A DNA stretch of 27,583 nucleotides, from positions 1 through 27,583 of IMG/VR virus record IMGVR_UViG_3300028920_000224. One strand, written 5' to 3'. The DNA comes from a virus. Below the pieces are notes generated by a model. The model did not search any database. It saw nothing but the letters and a program-made list of their open reading frames with translations, and was not told where the DNA came from. A program made the position numbers and the translations under genes. Below, piece after piece: positions 8,786 through 23,264 of this stretch. The number at the start of each line of letters is the position of its first letter. Position 1 is the first letter of the stretch.

Positions 8786-10129
8786 ATGGCAACAAAGAAG
8801 CCAGCAAAGAAGCCAGCAAAGAAGGCGCCAGAGTCGGGCCATGTGATCGAGTTGCAGGTGTCGAATTACAAGGGAGTGAAGGAGATGCGCGTGGTGCTGC
8901 AGCCAGGCACCAACATTGTGGGCGGTAAGAATCGGGCCGGCAAGTCGTCAGGCCTGGACGCGCTGGCCAACATCTTCGGCGGCAAGAAGCTGACGCCCAA
9001 GGCACCGGTGCGCATGGGCACCGACGGGTTCAAGCTGCAGGCGGTGCTAAAAGAGCTGGGCGTCACCATTGTACGAGAGGGCAAGATAGGCGAAGATGGC
9101 AAGCTGCGCGAAAAGCTGGTGGTGTCGGATGCCGCCGGGTTTAAGGCAGAGCGCCCGCAAGAGCTGCTGGACAAGTTGTTGGACGCCCACGCCATCCGGC
9201 CAGAGGCGTTTGATGAGCTAAAGCCCAAGGAACAGGTGGAGCTACTGCGATCCATCGCTGGGTTGGATTTCGCCGAGGCTGACGCGCAATATCAGGATCT
9301 ATACAACAAGCGCCGGGATGCCAACGTTGCGCGGCAGTCAGTGCATGGCCAGATTGAGGCTATGGGGCCGGTGCTAGGTGGCACCCCAGACGAGCCGATC
9401 AGTGTTGGTGCACTGCTGGAAGAACTGGCAGAGATCGACGCCATCAACCGGGCCAACGACGAAGCGAGGCGTGTCCTAGAGGAGGAGGTGCGCCGGCTGG
9501 CCACAAGCAAGGGCGAGGTAGAGCGCCTGACGCTGGAGTTAGTAGAAGCCAAAAAGCGCGTGGTTGCTACATCTAAGGCAGTAGACAATGCCAGGGCAGC
9601 AGTTGACGGCCTTGAGTATCGCGACAGTGAGGCTATCAAAACGCAGTTGGATAACGCCGAGGAAATCAATGCCGCCGTGACCAAAAAGAAACAGCGGGCA
9701 GAGCTGGTGCGCAGATATGAAGATTTGTGCGAGGCGTGGGCAGCGTGTGACGGCGCCATGGCCAAGCTAGTGGCAGACAAGGAGGCCAAAATAGCCGGCG
9801 CTGGTCTGCCTGTGGATGGCCTGTCCTTTAATGACGACGGCGTGCTACTTAACGGGCTGCCGATTGACCAGGCGAGCCAACAAGAGCGGTCTCGGGTTAG
9901 CGTTGGCGTGGGCCTCGCCTTGTCGCCAAAGGTGCGGCTAATACTGGTGCGCGAGGGGTCGCTGTACGATGACGACAACCTGGCTAACCTAAACGCCATG
10001 GCGCTGGAGCATGACGCCATCGTGGTGGTTGAGCGGGTGATGAACGACAAGGAACAGGCAGAGGCAGAAGGGGCCGTTGTCTTCATGGAAGACGGGGTCG
10101 GGTACGTTCAGGAGGTTGACGGTGACTAA
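8786..10129 (+). CDS. SMC/RecF-like recombination ATPase
   Basis: 447 residues after GTAGGAGGCTGCAA. The N-terminal 16 residues are a Lys/Pro/Ala tail (KKPAKKPAKK). An ABC-type ATPase head follows with Walker A GGKNRAGKSS at 46-55, a coiled coil at about 215-325 (EEEVRRLATSKGEVERL and others), and the second half of the head near 360-437. The latter has a signature-like QQERSRVSVGVGLAL, a degenerate Walker B LILVREGSLYDDD and a D-loop/H-loop region with AIVVVERVMN. Such proteins accompany phage annealing proteins and exonucleases and are thought to act in DNA end processing or repair, related to RecF/SbcC/gp46. The coiled coil is much shorter than in true SMC proteins. It overlaps the deaminase-like gene by 8 bases. 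Confidence 0.85.
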   Translation: MATKKPAKKPAKKAPESGHVIELQVSNYKGVKEMRVVLQPGTNIVGGKNRAGKSSGLDALANIFGGKKLTPKAPVRMGTDGFKLQAVLKELGVTIVREGKIGEDGKLREKLVVSDAAGFKAERPQELLDKLLDAHAIRPEAFDELKPKEQVELLRSIAGLDFAEADAQYQDLYNKRRDANVARQSVHGQIEAMGPVLGGTPDEPISVGALLEELAEIDAINRANDEARRVLEEEVRRLATSKGEVERLTLELVEAKKRVVATSKAVDNARAAVDGLEYRDSEAIKTQLDNAEEINAAVTKKKQRAELVRRYEDLCEAWAACDGAMAKLVADKEAKIAGAGLPVDGLSFNDDGVLLNGLPIDQASQQERSRVSVGVGLALSPKVRLILVREGSLYDDDNLANLNAMALEHDAIVVVERVMNDKEQAEAEGAVVFMEDGVGYVQEVDGD

Positions 10130-10772
10130 ACTAGCGTGCGAACTGTTGTCGGGGCCGGGGCAAGAGCTGCGCGGCGGTGTGCCGGGTGCGCTGCTGTGTG
10201 ACTGGCAGATAGGCGTGCTGGCCAAGGCCGGCATGATCAAGCCATACGTGGCAGAACAGGTGCGCTACGACAGCGAATCGGTATCTAAGATGCTCAGGGT
10301 CGCAAGCTTTGGGCAGGGGCCTGCCGGGTACGATGTGCGCCTTGGCGTGGACTTCTCCCGGTGGGATGAGTCGGTCGATTTTCTGGACCCGCACAATATG
10401 CCGGGCGAGGACCAGCTGCATCGGTGGCGCCAGGAATCGGGGGCAATTATAGTTAGGGCCGGGGAGAAGGTGGATGGCGTCACGATGGAGACGTTCGACA
10501 TGCCCGGGGATGTGCAGGCAACCTGCAAATGTAAGTCAACGTATACCAGGCTTGGCCTGACTACACAGACGACTGGGATCGAACCGGGATTTCAGGGCAC
10601 CATAACAGTACAGCTCATGAACAACACGAGGCACGACATTAAGGTGTGGCCGCAGCAAGGCATCCTGCAGGTTCTGTTCTGGCAGATAGCGGTCCCAACC
10701 AGCACCTATGGCGGGTCATTCCAGGGGCAGCGCGGCGTAGTTACGCATGCCGGCCAAGTAGGTGAGGGGTGA
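10122..10772 (+). CDS. dCTP deaminase/dUTPase-superfamily protein with substituted catalytic Glu
   Basis: 216 residues from the GTG at 10122 after CAGGAGGTTGAC. The trimeric dUTPase fold is clear: GYDVRLG at 69-75, KSTYTRLGL at 138-146 (matching the SSxAR(L/I)G motif of dCTP deaminases), then GIEPGFQGTITVQLMN at 152-167 and a beta-strand with GILQVLFW. Known dCTP deaminases produce dUTP (or dUMP) from dCTP and use a glutamate in the strand after PGxxGxI; here that place is Gln164 (TVQLM instead of VLEFY in the E. coli enzyme). Ser139 and Arg143 are kept. The protein may therefore be inactive, regulatory or altered in chemistry. It sits directly before a PurA/PurZ-type gene, pointing to nucleotide-pool remodelling. 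Confidence 0.8.
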   Translation: MTKLACELLSGPGQELRGGVPGALLCDWQIGVLAKAGMIKPYVAEQVRYDSESVSKMLRVASFGQGPAGYDVRLGVDFSRWDESVDFLDPHNMPGEDQLHRWRQESGAIIVRAGEKVDGVTMETFDMPGDVQATCKCKSTYTRLGLTTQTTGIEPGFQGTITVQLMNNTRHDIKVWPQQGILQVLFWQIAVPTSTYGGSFQGQRGVVTHAGQVGEG

Positions 10773-11965
10773 TGCCAGAGAACATGCCTCGCGTGGCGAA
10801 TGGTAGTGAAGGGCGCATTGGGCGCACAGAGTACATCGACGGCACCTCCCGTTTTAACGAAGAGGCAAGGAGCAACATGAGTTCAAGTGATCTGCGGGTA
10901 GAGTTTGAGCGAGACATTGACGCAGTGGTGGGCACACAATACGGAGACGAGGGCAAGGGCATGGTCGCCAAGCTGCTGGCAGACGGTGGGTTCTACGATG
11001 GCGAGCCATATCGATGGACAGCCAGGGTCGGGGCGCAGAACGCGGAGCATCGATTTATCCACCAGGGTGCCGAGTTCTGCGGCCGGGTCCTGCCATCGGC
11101 TGCTGCATTCCGCGACATCGACGTATACCTGGGTGCCGGGCACTGCTTCAGGCCGGACCACCTGCTCACTGAGATGGTGCATATGGGGGTGGCGCCAGAG
11201 CGCATCATGGTAGACGGGCAGGCCATGTGGTTGAAGCCGGAGCACGCAGCCGCCAATGAAGTCATCGGCCAGGCACGCGGCACCACAGGGTGGGGCATTG
11301 GGGCGGCAGTGGCCGAGAAGGTACGGAGACGGCCAGGAACACAGCTCATACGAGATGCGGCCGACCTGTTGCCCGGCATCCGCATCGGCAGCGTGTCTGA
11401 TACCCTGATGGGTGTGGATGGGCCGGGGCTGGTTGAAGGGTCGCAGGGGGCGTTGCTGTCTCTGGACCAGGGAGATTACCCATACTGCACGGCCAAGAAT
11501 GTGACGGTCCCAGCCATGTTCGGCGAGCTGGGCGTGTCGTTCAAGCGTCTGCGTTACGTGTTTGGCGTGGTGCGGTTGGTGCCGATGCGCGTTCCTGGCG
11601 AATCCGGGCCGGCAGGAGGCAAGGAACTATCGTATGACGAGATTGAGCAGTCAACCGGGCTGCGCATCCCCAAGAGCAAGCGCATGCAGGGAGACGCCAC
11701 CAAGGAGACCGAGGAACGCGTGTTCGAATTTAGCATGGATGAGCTGCTGACGTCTCATGGTCTGAACGGGTACGACGGCCTGGCAGTCACATTTGCCGAC
11801 TATCACCGGCCGGGTAATTACCGAGTAACTGAGTGGGACAAGCTGCACGAGGACACCCGCAAGCTAATCATGCAGATCAATGACACAATAGCCCCGGTGT
11901 TCCTGGTGCGGACAGGCCAGGGCGAGCACGACAACATTTGGTTGAAGGATGGGAGGCCAGTGTGA
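10772..11965 (+). CDS. Adenylosuccinate synthetase family enzyme, archaeal PurA/PurZ-like
   Basis: 397 residues from the ATG at 10772 (TGATG junction). An alternative ATG at 10877 has AAGGAGCAAC before it and would remove 35 poorly conserved residues. The P-loop-like VVGTQYGDEGKG is at 52-63 with catalytic Asp59, and NAEHRF has the general-acid His93. Also visible are GTTGWGIGAA at 170-179, VEGSQGALLSLDQGDYPYCT at 221-240, GVVRLVPMRVPGESGP at 265-280 and VTFADY at 339-344. The LSLxxGxYPY and PMRVPGESGP forms are like archaeal PurA and phage PurZ rather than bacterial PurA. PurA joins Asp to IMP; PurZ joins Asp to dGMP for 2-aminoadenine DNA. PurZ is reported to lack the Asp, which is kept here, so substrate is open. 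Confidence 0.85.
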   Translation: MPENMPRVANGSEGRIGRTEYIDGTSRFNEEARSNMSSSDLRVEFERDIDAVVGTQYGDEGKGMVAKLLADGGFYDGEPYRWTARVGAQNAEHRFIHQGAEFCGRVLPSAAAFRDIDVYLGAGHCFRPDHLLTEMVHMGVAPERIMVDGQAMWLKPEHAAANEVIGQARGTTGWGIGAAVAEKVRRRPGTQLIRDAADLLPGIRIGSVSDTLMGVDGPGLVEGSQGALLSLDQGDYPYCTAKNVTVPAMFGELGVSFKRLRYVFGVVRLVPMRVPGESGPAGGKELSYDEIEQSTGLRIPKSKRMQGDATKETEERVFEFSMDELLTSHGLNGYDGLAVTFADYHRPGNYRVTEWDKLHEDTRKLIMQINDTIAPVFLVRTGQGEHDNIWLKDGRPV

Positions 11966-12567
11966 GTGAGAAGACGCTCAAGCAACATCTATCTGAGGTG
12001 ATGGCCAAAGCAGGTTATGTGCAATACGACGGCAAGGCCCCCGCTACGGCGGGGGGCTTCTCGTTCGCGTCTGCCGAGGCCGTGTTTGGCAAGGTGCGCA
12101 AGGAGCTGGCAGCGCGTGGTATCTGCATATCCGGCGACTCTGCGCTGGAGCACTACAGTGTAGACGGGAAGATGTCTCAGGCTGTGATCAAGAGCACCAT
12201 CACATTCCACCTGGGAGACGAGGAGCTATCTGTGTCGGCCCATGGAGAGGGCAAGACCACCGGAGGCAAGGCAGTCATGGTGGCCAATACTGCGGCCAAC
12301 AAGTACGCTGTGGCCAAGTTGCTGTTAATGTCGTGGGGCGATGATGCCGAGTTCCTGGAGGACGACGATGCCATCACGCCGGCCGCCAGCGAGTGGATGG
12401 TTAAGGCCCAGGCTGCAGCCAACAAGGCCAAGGGAGATACAAAGAAGTTTAGCGGATGGTGGGCCACGTTCGGGGATTCAGTCAAGGAGGAATGCGGCAA
12501 GGAGCAGGCAGCCCTGGTCTATGATGCCTACACCATCTTGCTGCGCGAGATGGGAGGTGGCGCATGA
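11962..12567 (+). CDS. ERF-family single-strand annealing protein
   Basis: 201 residues from the GTG at 11962 after GGGAGGCCA, overlapping the PurA/PurZ stop by 4 bases. The order of segments is that of ERF-type annealing proteins: a helix with KTLKQHLSEVMAKAGYV, then FSFASAEAVFGKVRKEL and GICISG, a sheet with STITFHLGDEELSV, a Gly-rich turn GEGKTTGGKAV and the helix ANKYAVAKLLLMSWGDDAEF. The latter matches the KY.L.KLL...GDD signature of the family. The C-terminal 60 residues are helical and alanine-rich. ERF proteins form rings that anneal complementary strands and work with a partner exonuclease, which here is the next gene, overlapping by 4 bases. Confidence 0.85.
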   Translation: MSEKTLKQHLSEVMAKAGYVQYDGKAPATAGGFSFASAEAVFGKVRKELAARGICISGDSALEHYSVDGKMSQAVIKSTITFHLGDEELSVSAHGEGKTTGGKAVMVANTAANKYAVAKLLLMSWGDDAEFLEDDDAITPAASEWMVKAQAAANKAKGDTKKFSGWWATFGDSVKEECGKEQAALVYDAYTILLREMGGGA

Positions 12568-13265
12568 GAGAGCTGAAGTTTGAGCAGCATACACCAGAGT
12601 GGCACGCAGTGCGGGCCAGCATGCCAACCGCATCTGAAGTCAAGCGAATTGTCACCACCAAGGGTGAAGTATCGAAGCAGCGGCAGGCGTACATGTACTC
12701 TTTGGCTGCCCGCAGTGTGTCGGGCGTTACCATAGAGGGGTATCAGTCTAAATCAATGGAAGAAGGCATACGCAGAGAGGCCGAAGCCCGCAGGGTGTAT
12801 GCCATGTTCCGCGAAACACCAGTGCAGGAGGTCGGATTCTGCATCAGAGACATAGAGTCAGCGGACGGCCAAGAGATCATAGCCCAGGCCGGGTGCAGCC
12901 CAGATGGGCTGGTCGGGGAAGATGGTGGGCTGGAGCTTAAGAATCCGGAGGATGGTACCCACGCCGGCTACCTGCTCAGCAACCGGTTGCCCACCCAGTA
13001 TTTCATACAGGTGCAGACCTCGCTGTGGGTAACGGAGCGCCAGTGGTGGGATTTCGTGTCTCACTATCCCGGCCTGCCGCTGTTTGTCGTCCGTGTGTAC
13101 CCGGATGAGAAATTCCACGCGGTGCTCGATGTTGAGATACCCAGGTTCTGCGCAGAGCTGGAAGAGGTGCGGCAACAGCTGCAAGCCACACAGGGGCAGC
13201 TGGCAGTGGAGGTGGGCGCCGCTGTAGAGGGCGCCGATGGCAAATTGAGCTTCGGCCCCAAGTAG
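12564..13265 (+). CDS. YqaJ/lambda-exonuclease-type recombination nuclease
   Basis: 233 residues, ATG overlapping the ERF stop (ATGA). PD-(D/E)XK exonuclease motifs are in order: the N-terminal EWHAVRASMPTASEV at 12-26, MEEGIRREAEARRVY at 65-79, then GCSPDGLVG (Asp114) and LELKNP with Glu124 and Lys126, and YFIQVQTSLWVTERQWWDF at 146-164. Asp114, Glu124 and Lys126 are the expected metal-binding and catalytic residues, and Gln149 matches the family's motif. Lambda exo and its relatives degrade one strand 5' to 3' from a duplex end, and the annealing protein loads on the exposed strand. The C-terminal 50 residues are helical and may contact the ERF protein. Confidence 0.88.
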   Translation: MRELKFEQHTPEWHAVRASMPTASEVKRIVTTKGEVSKQRQAYMYSLAARSVSGVTIEGYQSKSMEEGIRREAEARRVYAMFRETPVQEVGFCIRDIESADGQEIIAQAGCSPDGLVGEDGGLELKNPEDGTHAGYLLSNRLPTQYFIQVQTSLWVTERQWWDFVSHYPGLPLFVVRVYPDEKFHAVLDVEIPRFCAELEEVRQQLQATQGQLAVEVGAAVEGADGKLSFGPK

Positions 13266-13274
13266 GAGGACGAC

Positions 13275-13721
13275 ATGGCAGATAAGGCAGTTACGCGGAC
13301 GGCAATGCTGCGGCGTGTTAAAGAAAAGGTAGGCCAGAACGGGCCGTTCTTGGTGCTTACTGTGGAGATAGACGGCGAAGGCCTGTTCTGCAACCTGTTC
13401 GACCAGTGGTACTGGGAGGAGGGGTCAGCGCACGACATCCAAGACTACGCCAATAAGCCGGTAATAGTCACGTACGAGGAGGTGCAGAAGGGAGACAAAA
13501 CATTTAGGAATGTGCTGCACATCGAACCCGACCCCACTATCATAGAGGATGCTGAGGCGTGGGTTAAACCAGCAGATGGCATGGGAGACCGCAAACCATC
13601 CAAACGAGCTGACGCGGATAGGCAGGCGCTGGCTCAGTTCCTGCAGGCGTGCGCTGATGTGTTTGGTGCGCTGGCCTTGGCGGCCAACACAGCCCGCAAG
13701 GACATACTGGGAGGTGAGTAG
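13275..13721 (+). CDS. OB-fold-like putative single-stranded DNA-binding protein
   Basis: 148 residues after GTAGGAGGACGAC. Residues 8-95 look like an OB-fold: KEKVGQNGPFLVLTVEIDG, then GLFCNLFDQWYW, NKPVIVTYEEV and KTFRNVLHIEPD, with aromatic residues (F, W, Y) able to stack on bases. Residues 110-145 form a C-terminal helix (ALAQFLQACADVFGALALAA). Unlike typical bacterial SSB there is no acidic tip ending in DDIPF. Placed straight after the annealing protein and exonuclease, it is a good candidate for the phage's SSB. The following gene has the same arrangement of strands in its first 90 residues, suggesting an old duplication. Assignment by fold reading and context. Confidence 0.55.
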   Translation: MADKAVTRTAMLRRVKEKVGQNGPFLVLTVEIDGEGLFCNLFDQWYWEEGSAHDIQDYANKPVIVTYEEVQKGDKTFRNVLHIEPDPTIIEDAEAWVKPADGMGDRKPSKRADADRQALAQFLQACADVFGALALAANTARKDILGGE

Positions 13722-15713: not shown

Positions 15714-16499
15714 ATGACACAAGATCTTTCGCCCACCACCCTGGATCAGACACCAGTGACAGGTTGGGCGCTAATCCCACCGGCAGTCGCTGCTAGTGAC
15801 GTACTCACACCTTTACAGAAGCTAGTGCTGGGCAGGATCATGGGCCTGGTCGGGCAGCGCGGATATTGCTTTGCATCAAACTCATTCTTGGCACGAGGCC
15901 TGGGCGTTCGCCCCGGCACCATCACCAATGTTGTTTCTGCGCTGGTCAATGCCGGCCTATTGCGCCGGGAGCAAATCAAAGATGACAAGCAGACAGTAGA
16001 GCGCCGGTTGTGGCCGATATTCGCCGGGGGGGTACCTCACGTAGAAGGTAGGGTACCTTCGGAGAGTGAGCACGATACCGGGGGGGTACCTTCGGGGAGT
16101 GGAGTAGAGGGTAGAAGTTCAAAAACGAGGGTAGAAAAAAGCGCGCATGACATCCTTGAATATCTGAACGCAGCAACGGGCAGGACAGGGGCAGAGAGGT
16201 TTGCCAGCCCCGTCGGAATTACCGCCAGGCTGAAGGCAGGTGTCTCTCTCGACGATGCGCGGTTGGTCATCGACCACAAAGTGGCTGAGTGGGGCGACAA
16301 CGAGGAGATGTGCCCATTCCTGCGCCCACAAACGCTATTCGGCAAAGAGAAGTTCCCAGGATACCTGGCTGCCGCACACAGGTGGGATAAGAATGGTAGG
16401 CCGATGCCGAAGCGCAGGAGCAAGGTGTCCATTGGGCAAACGACACAGGGCCAGGGGGCTAGCCAGTACGCTGGATTAGTGCAGGGTGGTGCCTCATGA
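15714..16499 (+). CDS. O-like replication initiator/replisome organiser
   Basis: 261 residues; ATG at 15714 after GTAGGGAGGTATGTA. Residues 25-95 are a winged helix-turn-helix: LTPLQKLVLGRIMGLV, then SNSFLARGLGVRPGTITNVV and SALVNAGLLRRE. Residues 104-144 are a Gly/Ser/Val linker coded by repeated DNA. Residues 145-230 match the conserved phage C-terminal domain of replication proteins (Phg_2220_C type): ILEYLNAATGR, ITARLKAG, DARLVIDHKVAEW, and FLRPQTLFGKEKFPGYL. By analogy with lambda O and P22-type initiators it binds origin repeats and recruits the helicase loader, here the next gene (ATGA overlap). The basic tail MPKRRSK follows. The linker repeats are candidate iterons. Confidence 0.85.
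   Translation: MTQDLSPTTLDQTPVTGWALIPPAVAASDVLTPLQKLVLGRIMGLVGQRGYCFASNSFLARGLGVRPGTITNVVSALVNAGLLRREQIKDDKQTVERRLWPIFAGGVPHVEGRVPSESEHDTGGVPSGSGVEGRSSKTRVEKSAHDILEYLNAATGRTGAERFASPVGITARLKAGVSLDDARLVIDHKVAEWGDNEEMCPFLRPQTLFGKEKFPGYLAAAHRWDKNGRPMPKRRSKVSIGQTTQGQGASQYAGLVQGGAS
16024..16136. repeat. Direct repeats inside the initiator gene, candidate replication origin
   Basis: CCGGGGGGGTACCT occurs exactly twice (16024-16037 and 16078-16091). GGTACCTTCGG(A/G)GAGTG occurs twice (16052-16068 and 16085-16101, one difference). The core GGTACCT is thus present three times. Next, GAGGGTAGAA occurs exactly twice 20 bp apart (16107-16116 and 16127-16136), with A-rich runs around it. The repeats code for the linker between the two domains of the initiator, as the iterons do in lambda O. 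Confidence 0.55.
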
Positions 16500-17185
16500 T
16501 ACGCGGTGGCAAGATGGGGCGCACATACTCTGGCTGTACGTTCGACAATTTTGATGCCTACACGCGGGAATTGGTGCTGGCCATGGACGCTTGCAGGGCC
16601 GTGGTCGATGGAACCTCTAGGGGGGTCATATTGCTCGGCAAGGTCGGCACCGGCAAAACGCATCTAATGGCTGCCTTGGCCAAGGAGTTTGCCGGCATGC
16701 GGCCACAGGCGGCAGCGTTCACAGAGCCTGCAGACATGGTTCCTGTCCCGAGCCTGCGTGAGCTGGCAAAGCAGGCAGACAGCGAAGCAGACTGCGACCA
16801 GGGACCAACGTTGTCGCAGAGCGAGATGGGCAGCACCAAGTGGGTAGAATATTGGCCCGTGCTGGACCTGGTTGACGCACTGCGCGAGGGCTTGAGTGAC
16901 CCAGGTAAGAAGATGGTTGCCACCAGATGTGGCGACTGTGACTTGCTGGTGCTGGACGACTTCGGGCAAGAGCGGGAGACACCATTTGCGTTTGAGGAGC
17001 TGGCGCGCATCCTGGACTGGAGGTATCGCGATGACAGGCCTATAGCGGTCTCGTCTAACCTGACCGTAGAGGAAATCGTGGCCAAGTATGGCGAGCGGCA
17101 GATATCGCGATGGGGGCACCGGTGCACCATAGTGGCCGTCACCTGCGCCGATTTCCGAATAGGGGGCAAGCCATGCGCAAATTAG
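16496..17185 (+). CDS. dnaC: DnaC-like helicase loader ATPase
   Basis: 229 residues, ATGA overlap with the initiator gene. AAA+ motifs are present: Walker A GKVGTGKTH at 48-56, Walker B DLLVLDDFG at 149-157 with Asp154/Asp155, sensor-1-like PIAVSSNLT at 182-190, and an arginine-finger-like ERQISRWGHRC at 200-210. The N-terminal part YSGCTFDNFD is the usual entry of DnaC/IstB-like ATPases. Relative to DnaC there is an inserted, polar stretch at about 70-115 before the DALREGL helix. DnaC-type proteins open the DnaB ring and load it at the origin. No replicative helicase or polymerase is seen in this window, so it probably recruits the host helicase or one coded elsewhere. Confidence 0.85.
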   Translation: MIRGGKMGRTYSGCTFDNFDAYTRELVLAMDACRAVVDGTSRGVILLGKVGTGKTHLMAALAKEFAGMRPQAAAFTEPADMVPVPSLRELAKQADSEADCDQGPTLSQSEMGSTKWVEYWPVLDLVDALREGLSDPGKKMVATRCGDCDLLVLDDFGQERETPFAFEELARILDWRYRDDRPIAVSSNLTVEEIVAKYGERQISRWGHRCTIVAVTCADFRIGGKPCAN

Positions 17186-18743: not shown

Positions 18744-19159
18744 AGATTGACGGAACTCCATATAGTGAAGAAGAGGCATTGCGGATGGAGGAAATTGAGG
18801 AGTTACATAAAGAACTCTCAGCCCTAGAGACTGCCATTGCCGAGAAGGATGATGCGTTAAGGGTTGGCATTGAGACTGTGCGGCGTTTTGATGTTGTATC
18901 CGGTGCTGCATTTGCTACGAACCCGCAAGGATCAAGAGCATACGAGGCAGTATGCGCGTTGCGAGGTTGGGCTAATCCGTCATTCGGGAAAGCCCAAGTA
19001 GCCCTCTCCTCCGAGCCGACCGTCGAGGTGGTGGTTCGTGCCGACGAAGCCATGCGCAGGGAGACGATTGAGGAATGCAAGTTAGCAGTTGCTAACGCAT
19101 TAGTTGCTGGCACGCCACCTCTGGAAGCTCTTTGCGCCCTAGTCAAAGGAGGAGCATGA
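18740..19159 (+). CDS. Hypothetical protein with coiled-coil N-terminus
   Basis: 139 residues, ATGA overlap with the HNH gene. Residues 8-50 are a charged coiled coil (EEEALRMEEIEELHKELS, then ALETAIAEKDDALRVG). The rest is helical with FDVVSGAAFATNPQGSRAYE and VEVVVRADEAMRRETIEECK. No known domain, Cys cluster or membrane segment. From here to about 19670 the DNA seems less GC-rich than the rest, with more A/T-ending codons such as GAA, AAA, GTT and GCA, which suggests a different origin for this and the next two genes. Function unknown. Confidence 0.65.
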   Translation: MKIDGTPYSEEEALRMEEIEELHKELSALETAIAEKDDALRVGIETVRRFDVVSGAAFATNPQGSRAYEAVCALRGWANPSFGKAQVALSSEPTVEVVVRADEAMRRETIEECKLAVANALVAGTPPLEALCALVKGGA

Positions 19160-19533
19160 AAGTCATCTGCCCATATTGCCACAGACCAGCAGAGTTGGTT
19201 GATGGCAAAGCGATATATCCATCGCGCCCTGATTTGTACCAGAAGAAATTTTGGCTATGCACACTGTGTGACGCCTACGTTGGTACGCACAGGGGCAGCA
19301 AAGCGCATAACCCGCTGGGTCGCCTAGCAAACGCAGAGCTTCGACGCGCCAAACAAGATGTGCATCGCGTGTTTGATCCGTTATGGAAGACAAAGCAGAT
19401 GACGCGAAACGAAGCTTACAGGTGGTTGGCTGAGGAACTAGGCATTGATCGAAAGGAATGTCACATTGGCATGTTTGATGTAGATCGATGCCGACAGGCA
19501 TTTGAAATCGTAATGCAACTCAAGAGGCAATAG
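19156..19533 (+). CDS. DUF3268-type zinc-finger protein
   Basis: 125 residues from the ATG at 19156 after AAAGGAGGAGC, overlapping the previous stop (ATGA). The order VICPYCHRPAELVDGK, FWLCTLCDAYVGTHRG, NPLGRLANAELRRAKQDVH, FDPLW, YRWLAEELGI and ECHIGMFDVDRC matches the DUF3268 family, short phage/bacterial proteins of unknown function. Two CxxC pairs (5/8 and 35/38) should hold one zinc. The CHIGMFD segment near 102 is the family's most conserved stretch. Its codon use resembles the previous gene and differs from the window in general. Confidence 0.8.
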   Translation: MKVICPYCHRPAELVDGKAIYPSRPDLYQKKFWLCTLCDAYVGTHRGSKAHNPLGRLANAELRRAKQDVHRVFDPLWKTKQMTRNEAYRWLAEELGIDRKECHIGMFDVDRCRQAFEIVMQLKRQ

Positions 19534-20006: not shown

Positions 20007-20457
20007 GGAACCGAAGCAGGAGGCGCCTGGTATCACGGTGTCGGTGTTAGAAGGAAAGCAGGTGGAGGCGCCATATCTGAGGATGTTGCGTTTGGTGCGG
20101 GTGACGCCAGGCACCGGGGAACCGGGCGATAGCGGGTTTGTGCCGGCCATGCGCGAGGCGCTGGATTTCAGGTCTGGAGAGTGGGTCGAGATATTGATAG
20201 GCGAGGATTTCCCGGAGGGCACCACTACGATAGTGCAGGCAGACACCGCGGTCAGAATGTTCCTAGACCTAGTGGACTGCGTGCGGTGCGGGAAGACCCA
20301 TGCGCGACTGCCGATATTCGACCTAGATGGCAGCCCCGACTACAACTGCTGGTGCATGTGCCCGGAGACGCAGCAGCCAGTCATGCTCTCTGTGCAGGGC
20401 GCAGACGAGCCGCCAAAGCTGGTAGTGCCGGCTTCCAAAGAGATCGTGACACCGTAG
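19996..20457 (+). CDS. Hypothetical protein with C-terminal Cys-rich module
   Basis: 153 residues; ATG at 19996 after GGGGAGGCTGGCA. The first 95 residues are mixed strands with hydrophobic pieces (APYLRMLRLVRVTPG, EWVEILIGEDFPEG). Residues 98-125 hold DCVRCGKTHARLPIFDLDGS and NCWCMCPETQ, i.e. a CxxC followed by CxCxC, likely a zinc site. The C-terminus has no special feature. I do not recognise a family. Thirteen bases after its stop comes a very short membrane gene and then the packaging promoter, so this is near the end of the replication operon. Confidence 0.62.
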   Translation: MEAREPKQEAPGITVSVLEGKQVEAPYLRMLRLVRVTPGTGEPGDSGFVPAMREALDFRSGEWVEILIGEDFPEGTTTIVQADTAVRMFLDLVDCVRCGKTHARLPIFDLDGSPDYNCWCMCPETQQPVMLSVQGADEPPKLVVPASKEIVTP

Positions 20458-20470
20458 GGGGTGTGTTTAA

Positions 20471-20569
20471 ATGTCTAAGAGTAGCAGCCCAGTGATTAGC
20501 GGCGTGCTGTTTGTAGGGTGCATCCTGGCTCTGGCCATGCTGTGGTCGATGCTCCGGGGCGGTATTTGA
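20471..20569 (+). CDS. 32-residue membrane peptide
   Basis: A short gene starting at ATG 20471 with a weak GGGGGTGTG upstream. The product is MSKSSSPVISGVLFVGCILA followed by LAMLWSMLRGGI, a single hydrophobic helix with a polar N-terminus. Its stop codon is embedded in the -35 box of the packaging promoter. Because the ribosome-binding site is weak and the gene is tiny, it could be a chance frame; its clean membrane-helix composition is the argument for it. Confidence 0.4.
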   Translation: MSKSSSPVISGVLFVGCILALAMLWSMLRGGI

Positions 20570-20595
20570 CGGATGATACTTCGGTCGGTTATACT
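20566..20595 (+). promoter_or_regulatory. Sigma70-type promoter of the packaging/late operon
   Basis: TTGACG at 20566-20571 and TATACT at 20590-20595, spacer 18 bases: the closest to consensus of the three promoters seen. The start should be near 20602. The leader then begins with a perfect seven-pair hairpin GGGAACG/CGTTCCC (20605-20611 with 20617-20623, loop CCCAA), followed by the 12-base palindrome CCCAGGCCTGGG (20622-20633). The -35 box overlaps the stop codon of the short membrane gene. Confidence 0.75.
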
Positions 20596-20648
20596 CTATA
20601 TGGCGGGAACGCCCAACGTTCCCCAGGCCTGGGACATGGGGGTCCACA

Positions 20649-21077
20649 ATGGCAGGTGAGAGCAAGACGAGCAAGCGCAGACTAGAGGGCCGCGCACGCC
20701 AATCGCAAGCTCTTGAACTGCGGACCACGGGCATGACGTTCCAGGCTATTGCAGACCAGCTCGGATATGCGGGCGCCCCCCAAGCGTACACCGCAGTCAT
20801 GATGGCTCTGAAGCGGGTGGATGTAGAACCGGCAGAGGAGCTGCGCAATCTAGAGAGCACCCGGATGGACGCTATGTTGGACGGCATCTGGGCCAAGGCG
20901 AAGTCTGGAGACGACAAGGCCATCGCCGCAGTGATTAGCATCATGAAGCGCCGGGCCAAGCTAATGGGGCTTGACCTGGAGAAGACGGACGGGCCTGTGG
21001 TGGTCGTAGGGCCGCTGGTTATCCAACGCAGCACCCCCGTGCCCGAGGAAACACGAGGAGAGGACAATGAATCGTAG
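20649..21077 (+). CDS. terS: Terminase small subunit
   Basis: 142 residues, the first gene after the packaging promoter; the ATG follows a modest GGGGGTCCACA. The N-terminus is basic and contains a helix-turn-helix: SQALELRTTGMTFQAIADQL, then GYAGAPQAYTAVMMALKRV. The middle has PAEELRNLESTRMDAMLDGI and the helix KAIAAVISIMKRRAKLMGLD, a sequence order I know from phage small terminase subunits. TerS recognises the packaging site and forms a ring that regulates the large subunit, which lies downstream at about 22000 after three or four small genes. That separation is unusual. The palindrome in its leader could be part of a packaging recognition site, but this is speculation. Confidence 0.85.
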   Translation: MAGESKTSKRRLEGRARQSQALELRTTGMTFQAIADQLGYAGAPQAYTAVMMALKRVDVEPAEELRNLESTRMDAMLDGIWAKAKSGDDKAIAAVISIMKRRAKLMGLDLEKTDGPVVVVGPLVIQRSTPVPEETRGEDNES

Positions 21078-21513
21078 GGATGTCGATGTGTGTGATAGAA
21101 ATCAGGGCCATGGAAGAGGTATCCTGGGGGTACTATGCCGGTATCCATCGATCAAAGTCAGGATGGCAATCTTGCGGGCCAAGCTCCGGGCGACCAGGCG
21201 ACGGAGGGCCATGGCGTTCATAGAGGCGATTCCCGAGACACTGACCACGCACAATTGGACCAGCCGGGGCAGCACTATCGAAATCCTGGAGCTGGAACTG
21301 ATAAATAAGCACGGGGTGCCACATGGCAGGATTACTGAAGACATCGGCATCCACGGGGAGCCGGGTGACTCGCTGGTGTTGGAGCTAAACATGGCGCTGA
21401 CGGTCGATGGTGAGAAGCTGCCACCCATCCCGGTGTTGATCATCCCCAAGCGTGCCGTGGAGTTGGTGCAGAACACCGCGTTCCAGTTTAAGCGGGAGGT
21501 GCGCCATGTCTGA
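21067..21513 (+). CDS. Hypothetical protein between the terminase genes
   Basis: 148 residues from ATG 21067, which has the strong CGAGGAGAGGACA upstream and overlaps terS by 11 bases. The first 48 residues are Arg-rich and irregular. From MAFIEAIPETLTTHNW (an ATG at 21211 after CGGAGGGCC) the protein becomes regular, with strands TIEILELEL, DSLVLELNMALTVDG, PIPVLIIPKRAVELV and a jelly-roll-like pattern. The true start may therefore be 21211, giving 100 residues; a different frame at 21080-21223 would then fill the gap. No family recognised. The beta-rich part suggests a structural or regulatory role in the packaging operon. Confidence 0.6.
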   Translation: MNRRDVDVCDRNQGHGRGILGVLCRYPSIKVRMAILRAKLRATRRRRAMAFIEAIPETLTTHNWTSRGSTIEILELELINKHGVPHGRITEDIGIHGEPGDSLVLELNMALTVDGEKLPPIPVLIIPKRAVELVQNTAFQFKREVRHV

Positions 21514-21811
21514 GAACATGAGAGTTCGGCCGGCGCGGGGGCAGCGCCCCATGACGTCTATTAAGGTGCCAGCAATGTCGGCTAAGGCGCTGGCGGCAGA
21601 ATTAGAGGCGGCCAGGGAGAGGCGGGAATTGCGCCTGGAAATGGCGGCCAGGGACCGTGCAGATCGGTGCGCCAGGCACAACAATCTAGAGGGCGAGCAC
21701 ATGCGGTACTGCGAGGCGTGCGAGGTCGGGTTGGGCATCATGTTGCTGTCGTCGTTTCGCAAGCTGAGGAAATGTAAATATTGTGGCGGGCAGGTGCACT
21801 CATGGCACTAG
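21506..21811 (+). CDS. Small zinc-ribbon-like protein
   Basis: 101 residues; ATG at 21506 after GGGAGGTGCGCC, overlapping the previous stop by 8 bases. The N-terminal third is basic; residues 30-52 form a helix (AKALAAELEAARERRELRL). The C-terminal half contains CARHNN, RYCEACEVGLG and KCKYCGGQVHSWH: two CxxC pairs plus flanking Cys/His that can bind zinc, in the manner of phage HNH-like or zinc-ribbon accessory proteins. It lacks the HNH catalytic core. Position between small and large terminase subunits suggests a packaging accessory, which is inference only. Confidence 0.62.
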   Translation: MSENMRVRPARGQRPMTSIKVPAMSAKALAAELEAARERRELRLEMAARDRADRCARHNNLEGEHMRYCEACEVGLGIMLLSSFRKLRKCKYCGGQVHSWH

Positions 21812-21822
21812 GAGGCAGAGAA

Positions 21823-22011
21823 ATGGCCAGACCAGGCGTGTGGCTTGACGAGGTGGGCCTGATCCCCAGTGCCTTGATGGCGCAGTTGGTCTCTGAGGCC
21901 GCGCGGGCGACATATTTCCCGCCACTGTTTGCGCAACATGCCAAGAGACCGAGTGGGCCGGCCTTTTACTGGCAGAAGTACATTGAGGAGGATAAATCAC
22001 CACCGGAGTAG
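21823..22011 (+). CDS. Hypothetical small protein preceding the large terminase
   Basis: 62 residues; I chose ATG 21823 after TAGGAGGCAGAGAA over the in-frame ATG at 21802. The sequence has MARPGVWLDEVGLIPSALMA and then FPPLFAQHAKRPSGPAFYWQ, ending in an acidic tail KYIEEDKSPPE. It is compact, with no Cys or known motif. Its 3' end contains the AGGAGG (21986-21991) that would best serve the terminase gene, so the two are likely coupled. Function unknown. Confidence 0.58.
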   Translation: MARPGVWLDEVGLIPSALMAQLVSEAARATYFPPLFAQHAKRPSGPAFYWQKYIEEDKSPPE

Positions 22012-22028
22012 CGACACCGACCAGCAAA

Positions 22029-23264
22029 GTGGTCGTGCCTTATCGACACCAGGAGCGGACGTTGGATTCCAGCGCCCGCTTCATTGCGTTAATGGGCGGC
22101 ACAGGCGGTGGCAAGACGTGGTGGGGGCCAATCTGGATGTACAACCTCATAGCGGGGGATGTAGCGCGGGGTGTCGGGAAGGGCGCCAAGTACCTAGCGG
22201 TGGCCCGGACCTATGCCATGGCGTCAGACACACTCATCCCTTTATTCCGGGAGCACTTCGATGGCACGCCACTGCAGGGACACTGGCACGAGCAGAAGGG
22301 CAGGTACGAACTGCCGACGGGCGGCACGGTGTTTTTCAAGTCCGGTGACAAACCGCACCGAATCGAGGGGATTCACGCCCGGGGCGCCTGGCTGGACGAG
22401 CCTAGCGAGATGCCGGCCTTGATTTGGGTCATCATCCAGAGCCGGGTGGGGCTGTACACGGCGCCTGTCTTGTTCACTGGGTATCCTACCAACATGGGCT
22501 GGTATTACGACCAGGTGTTCAGGCCATGGGAAGAAGGCGACCACGAGTACGATGTGATCCAGTTTGACAGCACCGAGAATCCCATGTACTCTGCAGAAGA
22601 GATGGCCCGGGCCAAGCGTGTGTTGCCGGCCTGGCTGTATGATATGCGCTATCGTGGGCTGTTCCGCAAGCCGGCTGGGCTTATCTACCCGACGTTTGGG
22701 ACGCACCAGTACGTAGAGCCGTTTGACATACCTGACGACTGGCCGTCCTATGCCACTGTTGACCCGGGGCTGTTTTACGGGGCTGTGTTTATGGCGTGGC
22801 ATGAGGGCGTTTACTACCAGTATGACGAGTATTCGACCACGGACCCCAGGTCTGCACAGGCCCATGCGGACCAGATGCGCCCAAAGATCAAGGGCAGTTT
22901 CCTAGGGTGGATGTATGACCCGGCTCGCAAGACCGACATATTGAATCTGATCCAGGCGGGGCTGGGGCCATTTTATAAGGCGAACAACGCGGTTAACGCC
23001 GGCATAGAGACGACATTGGAAGTGATCGGCACTGACCGATGGAAGATCATGCGGGGCAAATGCCCCAGCACGGTGGACCAGTTCTCTAAGTATAAGAGGC
23101 CGACGGACCCTGGCACCGGAGAAGTGACCAGCGACAAGCCACTGAAGAAGGACGACGAGATGCCGGACTGCGTGCGCTACATGTTCCACACGTTGGAGTC
23201 GGCGCCGCTGAAGACCAGGGAGGTCGTGGTGGCCAGCCTGGCAGAAGAGATATCTAGCTATTAG
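22029..23264 (+). CDS. terL: Terminase large subunit
   Basis: 411 residues counted from the GTG at 22029. The ATPase has Walker A GGTGGGKT at 23-30 and Walker B GAWLDEPSE at 119-127 (Asp123, Glu124), with a coupling-like FTGYPTNMGW at 149-158. The nuclease domain has RNase H-like acidic residues in ATVDPG (Asp245), GWMYDPAR (Asp297) and DDEMPDCVRY (Asp380). It drives DNA into the prohead and cuts the concatemer. The GTG lacks a ribosome-binding site; in the same frame AGGAGG at 21986-21991 is followed by ATC at 21996, which would add 11 residues (ITTGVATPTSK). Either an unusual start is used or a base error has removed an ATG. Confidence 0.9.
   Translation: MVVPYRHQERTLDSSARFIALMGGTGGGKTWWGPIWMYNLIAGDVARGVGKGAKYLAVARTYAMASDTLIPLFREHFDGTPLQGHWHEQKGRYELPTGGTVFFKSGDKPHRIEGIHARGAWLDEPSEMPALIWVIIQSRVGLYTAPVLFTGYPTNMGWYYDQVFRPWEEGDHEYDVIQFDSTENPMYSAEEMARAKRVLPAWLYDMRYRGLFRKPAGLIYPTFGTHQYVEPFDIPDDWPSYATVDPGLFYGAVFMAWHEGVYYQYDEYSTTDPRSAQAHADQMRPKIKGSFLGWMYDPARKTDILNLIQAGLGPFYKANNAVNAGIETTLEVIGTDRWKIMRGKCPSTVDQFSKYKRPTDPGTGEVTSDKPLKKDDEMPDCVRYMFHTLESAPLKTREVVVASLAEEISSY

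Follow-up and report, generated by a model that had tools for sequence, protein, structure and literature searches.

The gene studied here lies in a 27,583-base viral fragment from IMG/VR, called the window below (the whole stretch of DNA analysed), in which end repeats are absent. Along the window, tail and fibre genes are followed by an early region, and this in turn by terminase, portal, and an open frame resembling a MuF-type head gene. This gene order suggests that the head-tail arm is probably missing and that the early region is probably whole. Genes for Z (2-aminoadenine) normally sit in the early region. No phage DNA polymerase was detected in the 27,583 bases, and the replication initiator and DnaC-like helicase loader found there suggest that the phage probably replicates with the host polymerase. 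The fragment also contains no match to nucleoside deoxyribosyltransferase-like (NDT) proteins, Pol I, DUF5664, or dUTPase in the strict sense. DatZ, MazZ, and DUF550 gave no match in the window or its relatives, while control phages did match; the first-pass annotation had stated that DatZ, MazZ, and DpoZ are not in the window, and this stands. A zinc-finger DUF3268 protein is encoded at 19132-19533 (PF11672, 4.9e-40; phrog_1934).

Table 1. Features of the locus, with residue equivalents in E. coli PurA numbering, and the PurZ0 cassette of a related phage
Feature	Positions	Strand	Remarks
SbcC/RecN-like ATPase (context)	8786..10129	+	phrog_1499 9e-64
dCTP-deaminase/dUTPase-fold gene	10128..10772	+	PF22769 2e-19, phrog_1663 1e-38; open frame from 10077
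PurA/PurZ-fold synthetase, NAEH clade, 397 aa	10772..11965	+	alternative start 10877, giving 362 aa
P-loop-like segment VVGTQYGDEGKG, residues 52-63	10925..10960	+	Asp59 = Asp13, Lys62 = Lys16
NAEHR, residues 90-94	11039..11053	+	Glu92 for Gly40, His93 = catalytic His41, Arg94 for Thr42
Loop RVPGESGP, residues 273-280	11588..11611	+	same length as PurZ0 RVAGNSGP; no insert in PurA
GDATKETEERV, residues 307-317, counterpart of TTVTxxxRR	11690..11722	+	Glu315 for Arg305
Asp343 = E. coli Asp333 (guanine recognition of NTP)	11798..11800	+	Asn/Gln in ATP-using PurZ
Erf-like ssDNA-annealing protein (replication/recombination context)	11938..12567	+	phrog_155 1.6e-8
RecE/lambda-type exonuclease (context)	12564..13265	+	phrog_149 5e-31
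Replication initiator and DnaC-like helicase loader (context)	15714..17185	+	phrog_428 5.9e-30, phrog_50 2.4e-34
PurZ0-type gene, NDT-dUTPase fusion, and Pol I of G020 (L201-L202; positions in that phage)	20026-22551	-	

The frame first annotated as a PurA/PurZ-family gene is open over its full length and matches the Pfam family Adenylsucc_synt (PF00709, 2.6e-28) and PHROG 1211, the PurZ family (6.5e-41), so that the assignment is sound. All of the motifs read from it earlier are present (Asp59, NAEH with His93, LSLDQGDYPY, PMRVPGESGP, and GTTGWGIG). The best matches among solved proteins are archaeal PurA (5k7x, 3.9e-25) and phage PurZ (6fm1, 5.5e-24), and bacterial PurA matches are weaker (3ue9, the best bacterial one, 2.2e-20; E. 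coli, 1e-16), in agreement with the earlier view that bacterial PurA is the more distant relative of the protein, and archaeal PurA and phage PurZ the nearer ones. The structure was predicted with AlphaFold2 (pLDDT 82, pTM 0.82). Structural comparisons of the predicted model gave Z scores of 40.4 with 5k7x, 38.9 with PurZ 6tnh, and 38.3 with PurZ0 7vf6, and the model thus confirms the PurA/PurZ fold. The true start may be the ATG at 10877, which is preceded by AAGGAG and matches the N-termini of relatives; the ATG at 10772 overlaps the TGA of the preceding gene.

That preceding gene, which is dCTP-deaminase-like, is joined to the purA-like ATG by a TGATG overlap. At the Glu position of the deaminase, found as LEF or LEL in solved dCTP deaminases, it has Gln (VQL; ITVQLMNN in the window gene vs VTLEFSN in solved deaminases). 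Judged by its residues, the protein could be a dNTP hydrolase rather than a deaminase, acting in the role of DutZ. A pattern search found no relatives of this gene in the viral contigs.

In a tree of 67 proteins (LG+C20+F+G4), the window protein and six close relatives, 60-66% identical to it, form clade A, next to seven proteins at 35-39% identity to the window protein (clade B). Clades A and B together are supported at 100/100, separate from PurZ, PurZ0, archaeal PurA, and bacterial PurA. PurZ and PurZ0 form groups of their own (100/100 each), and both exclude the window clade. With two later B members (L208 and L209) and the partial L026, the 14 proteins in the tree make a clade of 17, hereafter the NAEH clade, all of whose members found here come from one MAG contig or from contigs of uncultivated viruses. 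The best tree places clades A and B outside bacterial PurA. However, an AU test on four deep groupings, which concern how the clade branches among archaeal PurA, PurZ, PurZ0, and bacterial PurA, rejected none of them (p 0.16-0.36, with 0.36 for bacterial PurA), and the wider grouping with PurZ and PurZ0 had a p of 0.22. Among 50,697 phage records there is no close member of the clade, the best matches being at ~30% identity, and the clade is not described in the accessible part of the PurZ0 paper (PMC12884076). Our confidence in the NAEH clade, a previously undescribed branch of the PurA/PurZ family, is high. A lone PurA-like protein on a Woesebacteria MAG contig (L115, 2932-4047) has NAEH with an intact Arg305 and sits on a long branch.

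Active-site residues were compared in a table over the aligned proteins, using E. coli PurA numbering (17 or 16 clade members per site, and 54 others at the Arg305 site). Asp13 is the catalytic base in E. coli PurA. It is retained in all 17 clade members, as Asp59 in the window protein, and is Ser in 8/8 PurZ, 6/6 PurZ0, and the Bacillus phage vB_BpsS-140. The first-pass annotation was therefore right that the catalytic Asp of PurA is kept here and that PurZ has Ser in its place (14/14 PurZ and PurZ0 examined). Catalytic His41 is kept in every member, and Lys16, Arg143, and Gln224 are also retained. Together with the presence of plain PurA in many phage contigs, these residues would fit an adenylosuccinate synthetase of the ordinary kind, serving to raise dATP/ATP supply in infection. 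Other sites argue against this reading. Arg305 is replaced by Glu in 16/16 members, and it is Arg in 54/54 other proteins, including all 39 PurA-type rows; Glu315 of the window protein falls on this position in profile-profile alignments with both PurZ and PurZ0. Gly40 of NAGH is also Glu in 17/17 members and in only one of the other aligned proteins. The separate clade and a PurZ0-type dNMP loop stand against ordinary PurA as well: the loop insert occurs in 16/16 members, 6/6 PurZ0, and only one ordinary PurA in the set, with the consensus RVPGxSGP in the clade and RVAGNSGP in PurZ0. Plain dATP supply is in our judgement the less likely role, and we consider it quite unlikely.

Further changes set the clade apart. 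Thr42 is Arg in 17/17 members, the Lys331 site is mostly Phe, like PurZ, and Asp333 is Asp in 16/16 members, as in PurA and PurZ0, where PurZ has Asn or Gln. The TTVT tip is lost in the clade; in PurZ and PurZ0 this tip and Arg305 are constant. Our confidence in these residue changes is high. The proposal in the first-pass annotation that the protein may be PurZ0-like does not survive this comparison: in PurZ0 the Asp13 site is Ser and TTVTxxxRR is intact, and the window clade shows neither feature, so that PurZ0 membership was rejected on the Asp, the changed Arg305, and the tree position. Trp174 of GTTGWGIG, which the same annotation had pointed out as a replacement of bacterial Arg, is indeed present, in 8/8 of the close clade, but it carries little weight and was dropped as a clade marker, since ordinary PurA has R, T, K, Q, or S there.

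In E. coli PurA, Arg303 and Arg305 bind aspartate, as known from mutants of the enzyme; a statement of aspartate binding by Arg305 was not found in the open literature. In the PurZ of S-2L and phiVC8, the TTVT loop tip is strictly conserved and the loop contacts the aspartate substrate, the neighbouring loop insert brings a Val up against C2', which disfavours ribonucleotides, and the residue at the Asp333 site decides the base of the NTP (PMC8342488). The PurZ0-type insert kept in the NAEH clade thus predicts that deoxyribonucleotides are probably used, and the kept Asp333 predicts that GTP probably is. The change of Arg305 to Glu in every covering member, together with that of the NAGH Gly to Glu, suggests that the amine donor may be other than L-aspartate. 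Arg94 could also take over the role of Arg305, in which case aspartate would stay the donor.

Genes within 6 kb were counted in 15 clade contigs, 47 ordinary viral PurA loci, and 59 cellular loci. Pol I was found near the gene in 11/15 clade contigs and a DmtZ-like NDT in 8/15, and both were found at 0/47 and 0/59 of the other loci, which further argues against an ordinary phage PurA. The one-sided chance for NDT is ~2e-6 by hand (8/15 vs 0/47), an overstated figure, as some B contigs are closely related and the counts are not independent. The NDT profile used for the counts included clade seeds; a profile from two DmtZ of PurZ0 phages alone recovered 6/8 of the NDT genes (2.5e-7 to 5e-4) and the later L209 (1.2e-8), and Pfam PF05014 is above its cut-off in four viral contigs and L209. 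The catalytic Asn77 and Glu103 of DmtZ are conserved in the NDT genes of the B group. One relative (L032) has an NDT-dUTPase fusion like DmtZ-DutZ, as in Arthrobacter PurZ0 phages, and one of the 15 clade contigs (L031) encodes a DUF5664 dATP/dGTP diphosphohydrolase. In G003, a relative of 45.9 kb that is nearly complete, Pol I is present and pool enzymes are absent. A dUTPase neighbour was dropped as evidence, since 18/47 ordinary phage PurA loci also have one. The overall reading of the first-pass annotation is thus supported in part; it had missed the distinct clade, the Glu at Arg305 and at the NAGH Gly, and the DmtZ-like, dUTPase-like, and Pol I genes of the relatives.

Phe replaces the steric-gate Tyr in helix O of Pol I in both DpoZ groups. 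The Pol I of 10/11 relatives keeps Tyr, and Phe is found only in L003, so that the DpoZ signature is mostly absent and Z-selective replication is not indicated. We note that in L003 Pol I and the purA-like gene are separated by a gene (1647-2240) whose NPPF motif resembles that of adenine methyltransferases and which has no Pfam match. The clade-B phage L031 has a class II ribonucleotide reductase-like gene at 11351-13660, a further sign of nucleotide-pool remodelling. On the Eisenbacteria MAG contig (L100), an FtsH-like AAA and peptidase M41 protein is encoded two genes past the purA-like gene (9652-11346).

PMC12884076 reports that, of 98 PurZ0 genomes, all (98/98) have dutZ and 85 have dmtZ, and gives dATP removal and Z recycling as the functions of these enzymes in PurZ0 phages. 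The DmtZ-like, fusion, and DUF5664 genes of the relatives are accordingly accessory kinds common to the NAEH clade and PurZ0 phages. A portal search for relatives of the window phage found G016 and G020, with a clade member in neither. The G020 portal is 41% identical to that of the window, and G020 carries a true PurZ0 together with an NDT-dUTPase fusion and Pol I. Related phages thus carry either an NAEH-clade gene or PurZ0. Separately, the 'purA' with Ser of Bacillus phage vB_BpsS-140 (L019, 7974-9095) groups with PurZ (98/96), and this is likely a Z phage of a Bacillus host; it also has a weak NDT match at 555-1031.

The neighbours shared with PurZ0 phages and the true PurZ0 cassette in G020, together with the PHROG match to the PurZ family, the PurZ0-like loop, and Asp333, are what would be seen if the enzyme were equivalent to PurZ. 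It would then convert dGMP and L-aspartate to N6-succino-2-aminodeoxyadenylate for Z-DNA, with a rewired aspartate pocket (e.g. through Arg94) and with Asp59 reading the N1-H/N2-H edge of guanine. We find this rather unlikely, as Arg305 and the TTVT tip are lost in the clade, the Phe gate of DpoZ is mostly missing, and the position of Asp59 is Ser in all 14 PurZ and PurZ0 compared here and in all 147 phage PurZ and PurZ0 of PMC12884076. A further explanation is an ammonia-using aminase, which would turn dIMP or dGMP into dAMP or dZMP with no lyase, or a catalytically weakened, nucleotide-binding regulator. The loss of the aspartate-binding Arg, acidic replacements that could hold ammonium, and the absence of a lyase gene (PF00206) in 13 viral records all agree with it; a host lyase would do the job anyway, and the retained catalytic Asp and His disfavour a mere regulator. 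We rate this explanation as very unlikely.

Our preferred reading, which we hold tentatively at slightly under an even chance, is that the NAEH clade is a PurZ-like third lineage whose GTP-dependent enzyme aminates C6 of a purine dNMP for a non-canonical purine, with a donor that is perhaps not aspartate. The substrate would be dIMP or dGMP, a purine deoxyribonucleoside monophosphate whose 6-oxygen GTP would activate, an amine would then be coupled to C6, and the resulting non-canonical purine deoxynucleotide would enter a pool remodelled by the phage. A small or positively charged amine would suit a pocket turned acidic. The lack of a lyase gene in the 13 viral records is in keeping with this reading too. 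Our confidence in a role in a non-canonical purine pathway is moderate, and that in the exact substrate is low; the identity of the donor and of the product is inferred, as is incorporation of the product into DNA. The stronger proposal, that the clade makes a novel DNA purine (e.g. adenine or 2-aminoadenine with an N6 substituent) by putting a non-aspartate amine on a deoxynucleotide and that this purine replaces adenine, seems to us possible but doubtful. To our knowledge, only PurZ and PurZ0 among phage PurA relatives make a DNA base. If our reading is true, recruitment of the PurA scaffold for DNA purines happened more than once, and a third branch that made the opposite choice at the Asp/Ser switch and has an altered amine pocket would be a defined target in the search for a new base.

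Like PurZ0 (Gordonia phage Archimedes 7VF6; Ghobes, Wayne), the window protein has the fold (Z 38.3), the RVxGxSGP insert, and Asp333, and the clade has DmtZ-, DutZ-, DUF5664-, and Pol I-type genes nearby. Unlike PurZ0, the window clade has Asp instead of Ser at 13, NAEHR instead of NAGH, Glu at Arg305, and no TTVT tip; it is a separate clade, and its Pol I is mostly without the DpoZ Phe. With PurZ (phiVC8 6FM1, S-2L 7ODX) it shares the fold (Z 36.6-38.9), the Cys in YPYC(T), Phe at Lys331, and the Pol I neighbour, but it has Asp instead of Ser, Asp333 instead of Asn or Gln, Glu at Arg305, and neither DatZ nor MazZ. Archaeal PurA (Pyrococcus horikoshii 5K7X; Micrarchaeota) is the closest structure (Z 40.4), with Asp13 and a short chain without the long bacterial insert, whereas the clade has the PurZ0-like insert, Glu40, Arg42, Glu305, a lost Lys331, and a phage replication cassette. 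Bacterial PurA (E. coli) shares the catalytic Asp13, Lys16, His41, and the IMP-phosphate Arg143; the window protein is shorter, has Glu40 and Glu305, and is not placed within the bacterial group by the best tree. Taken together, the NAEH clade is best described as a third branch of the PurZ-like synthetases of phages, one in which the Asp is retained and the amine pocket remodelled.
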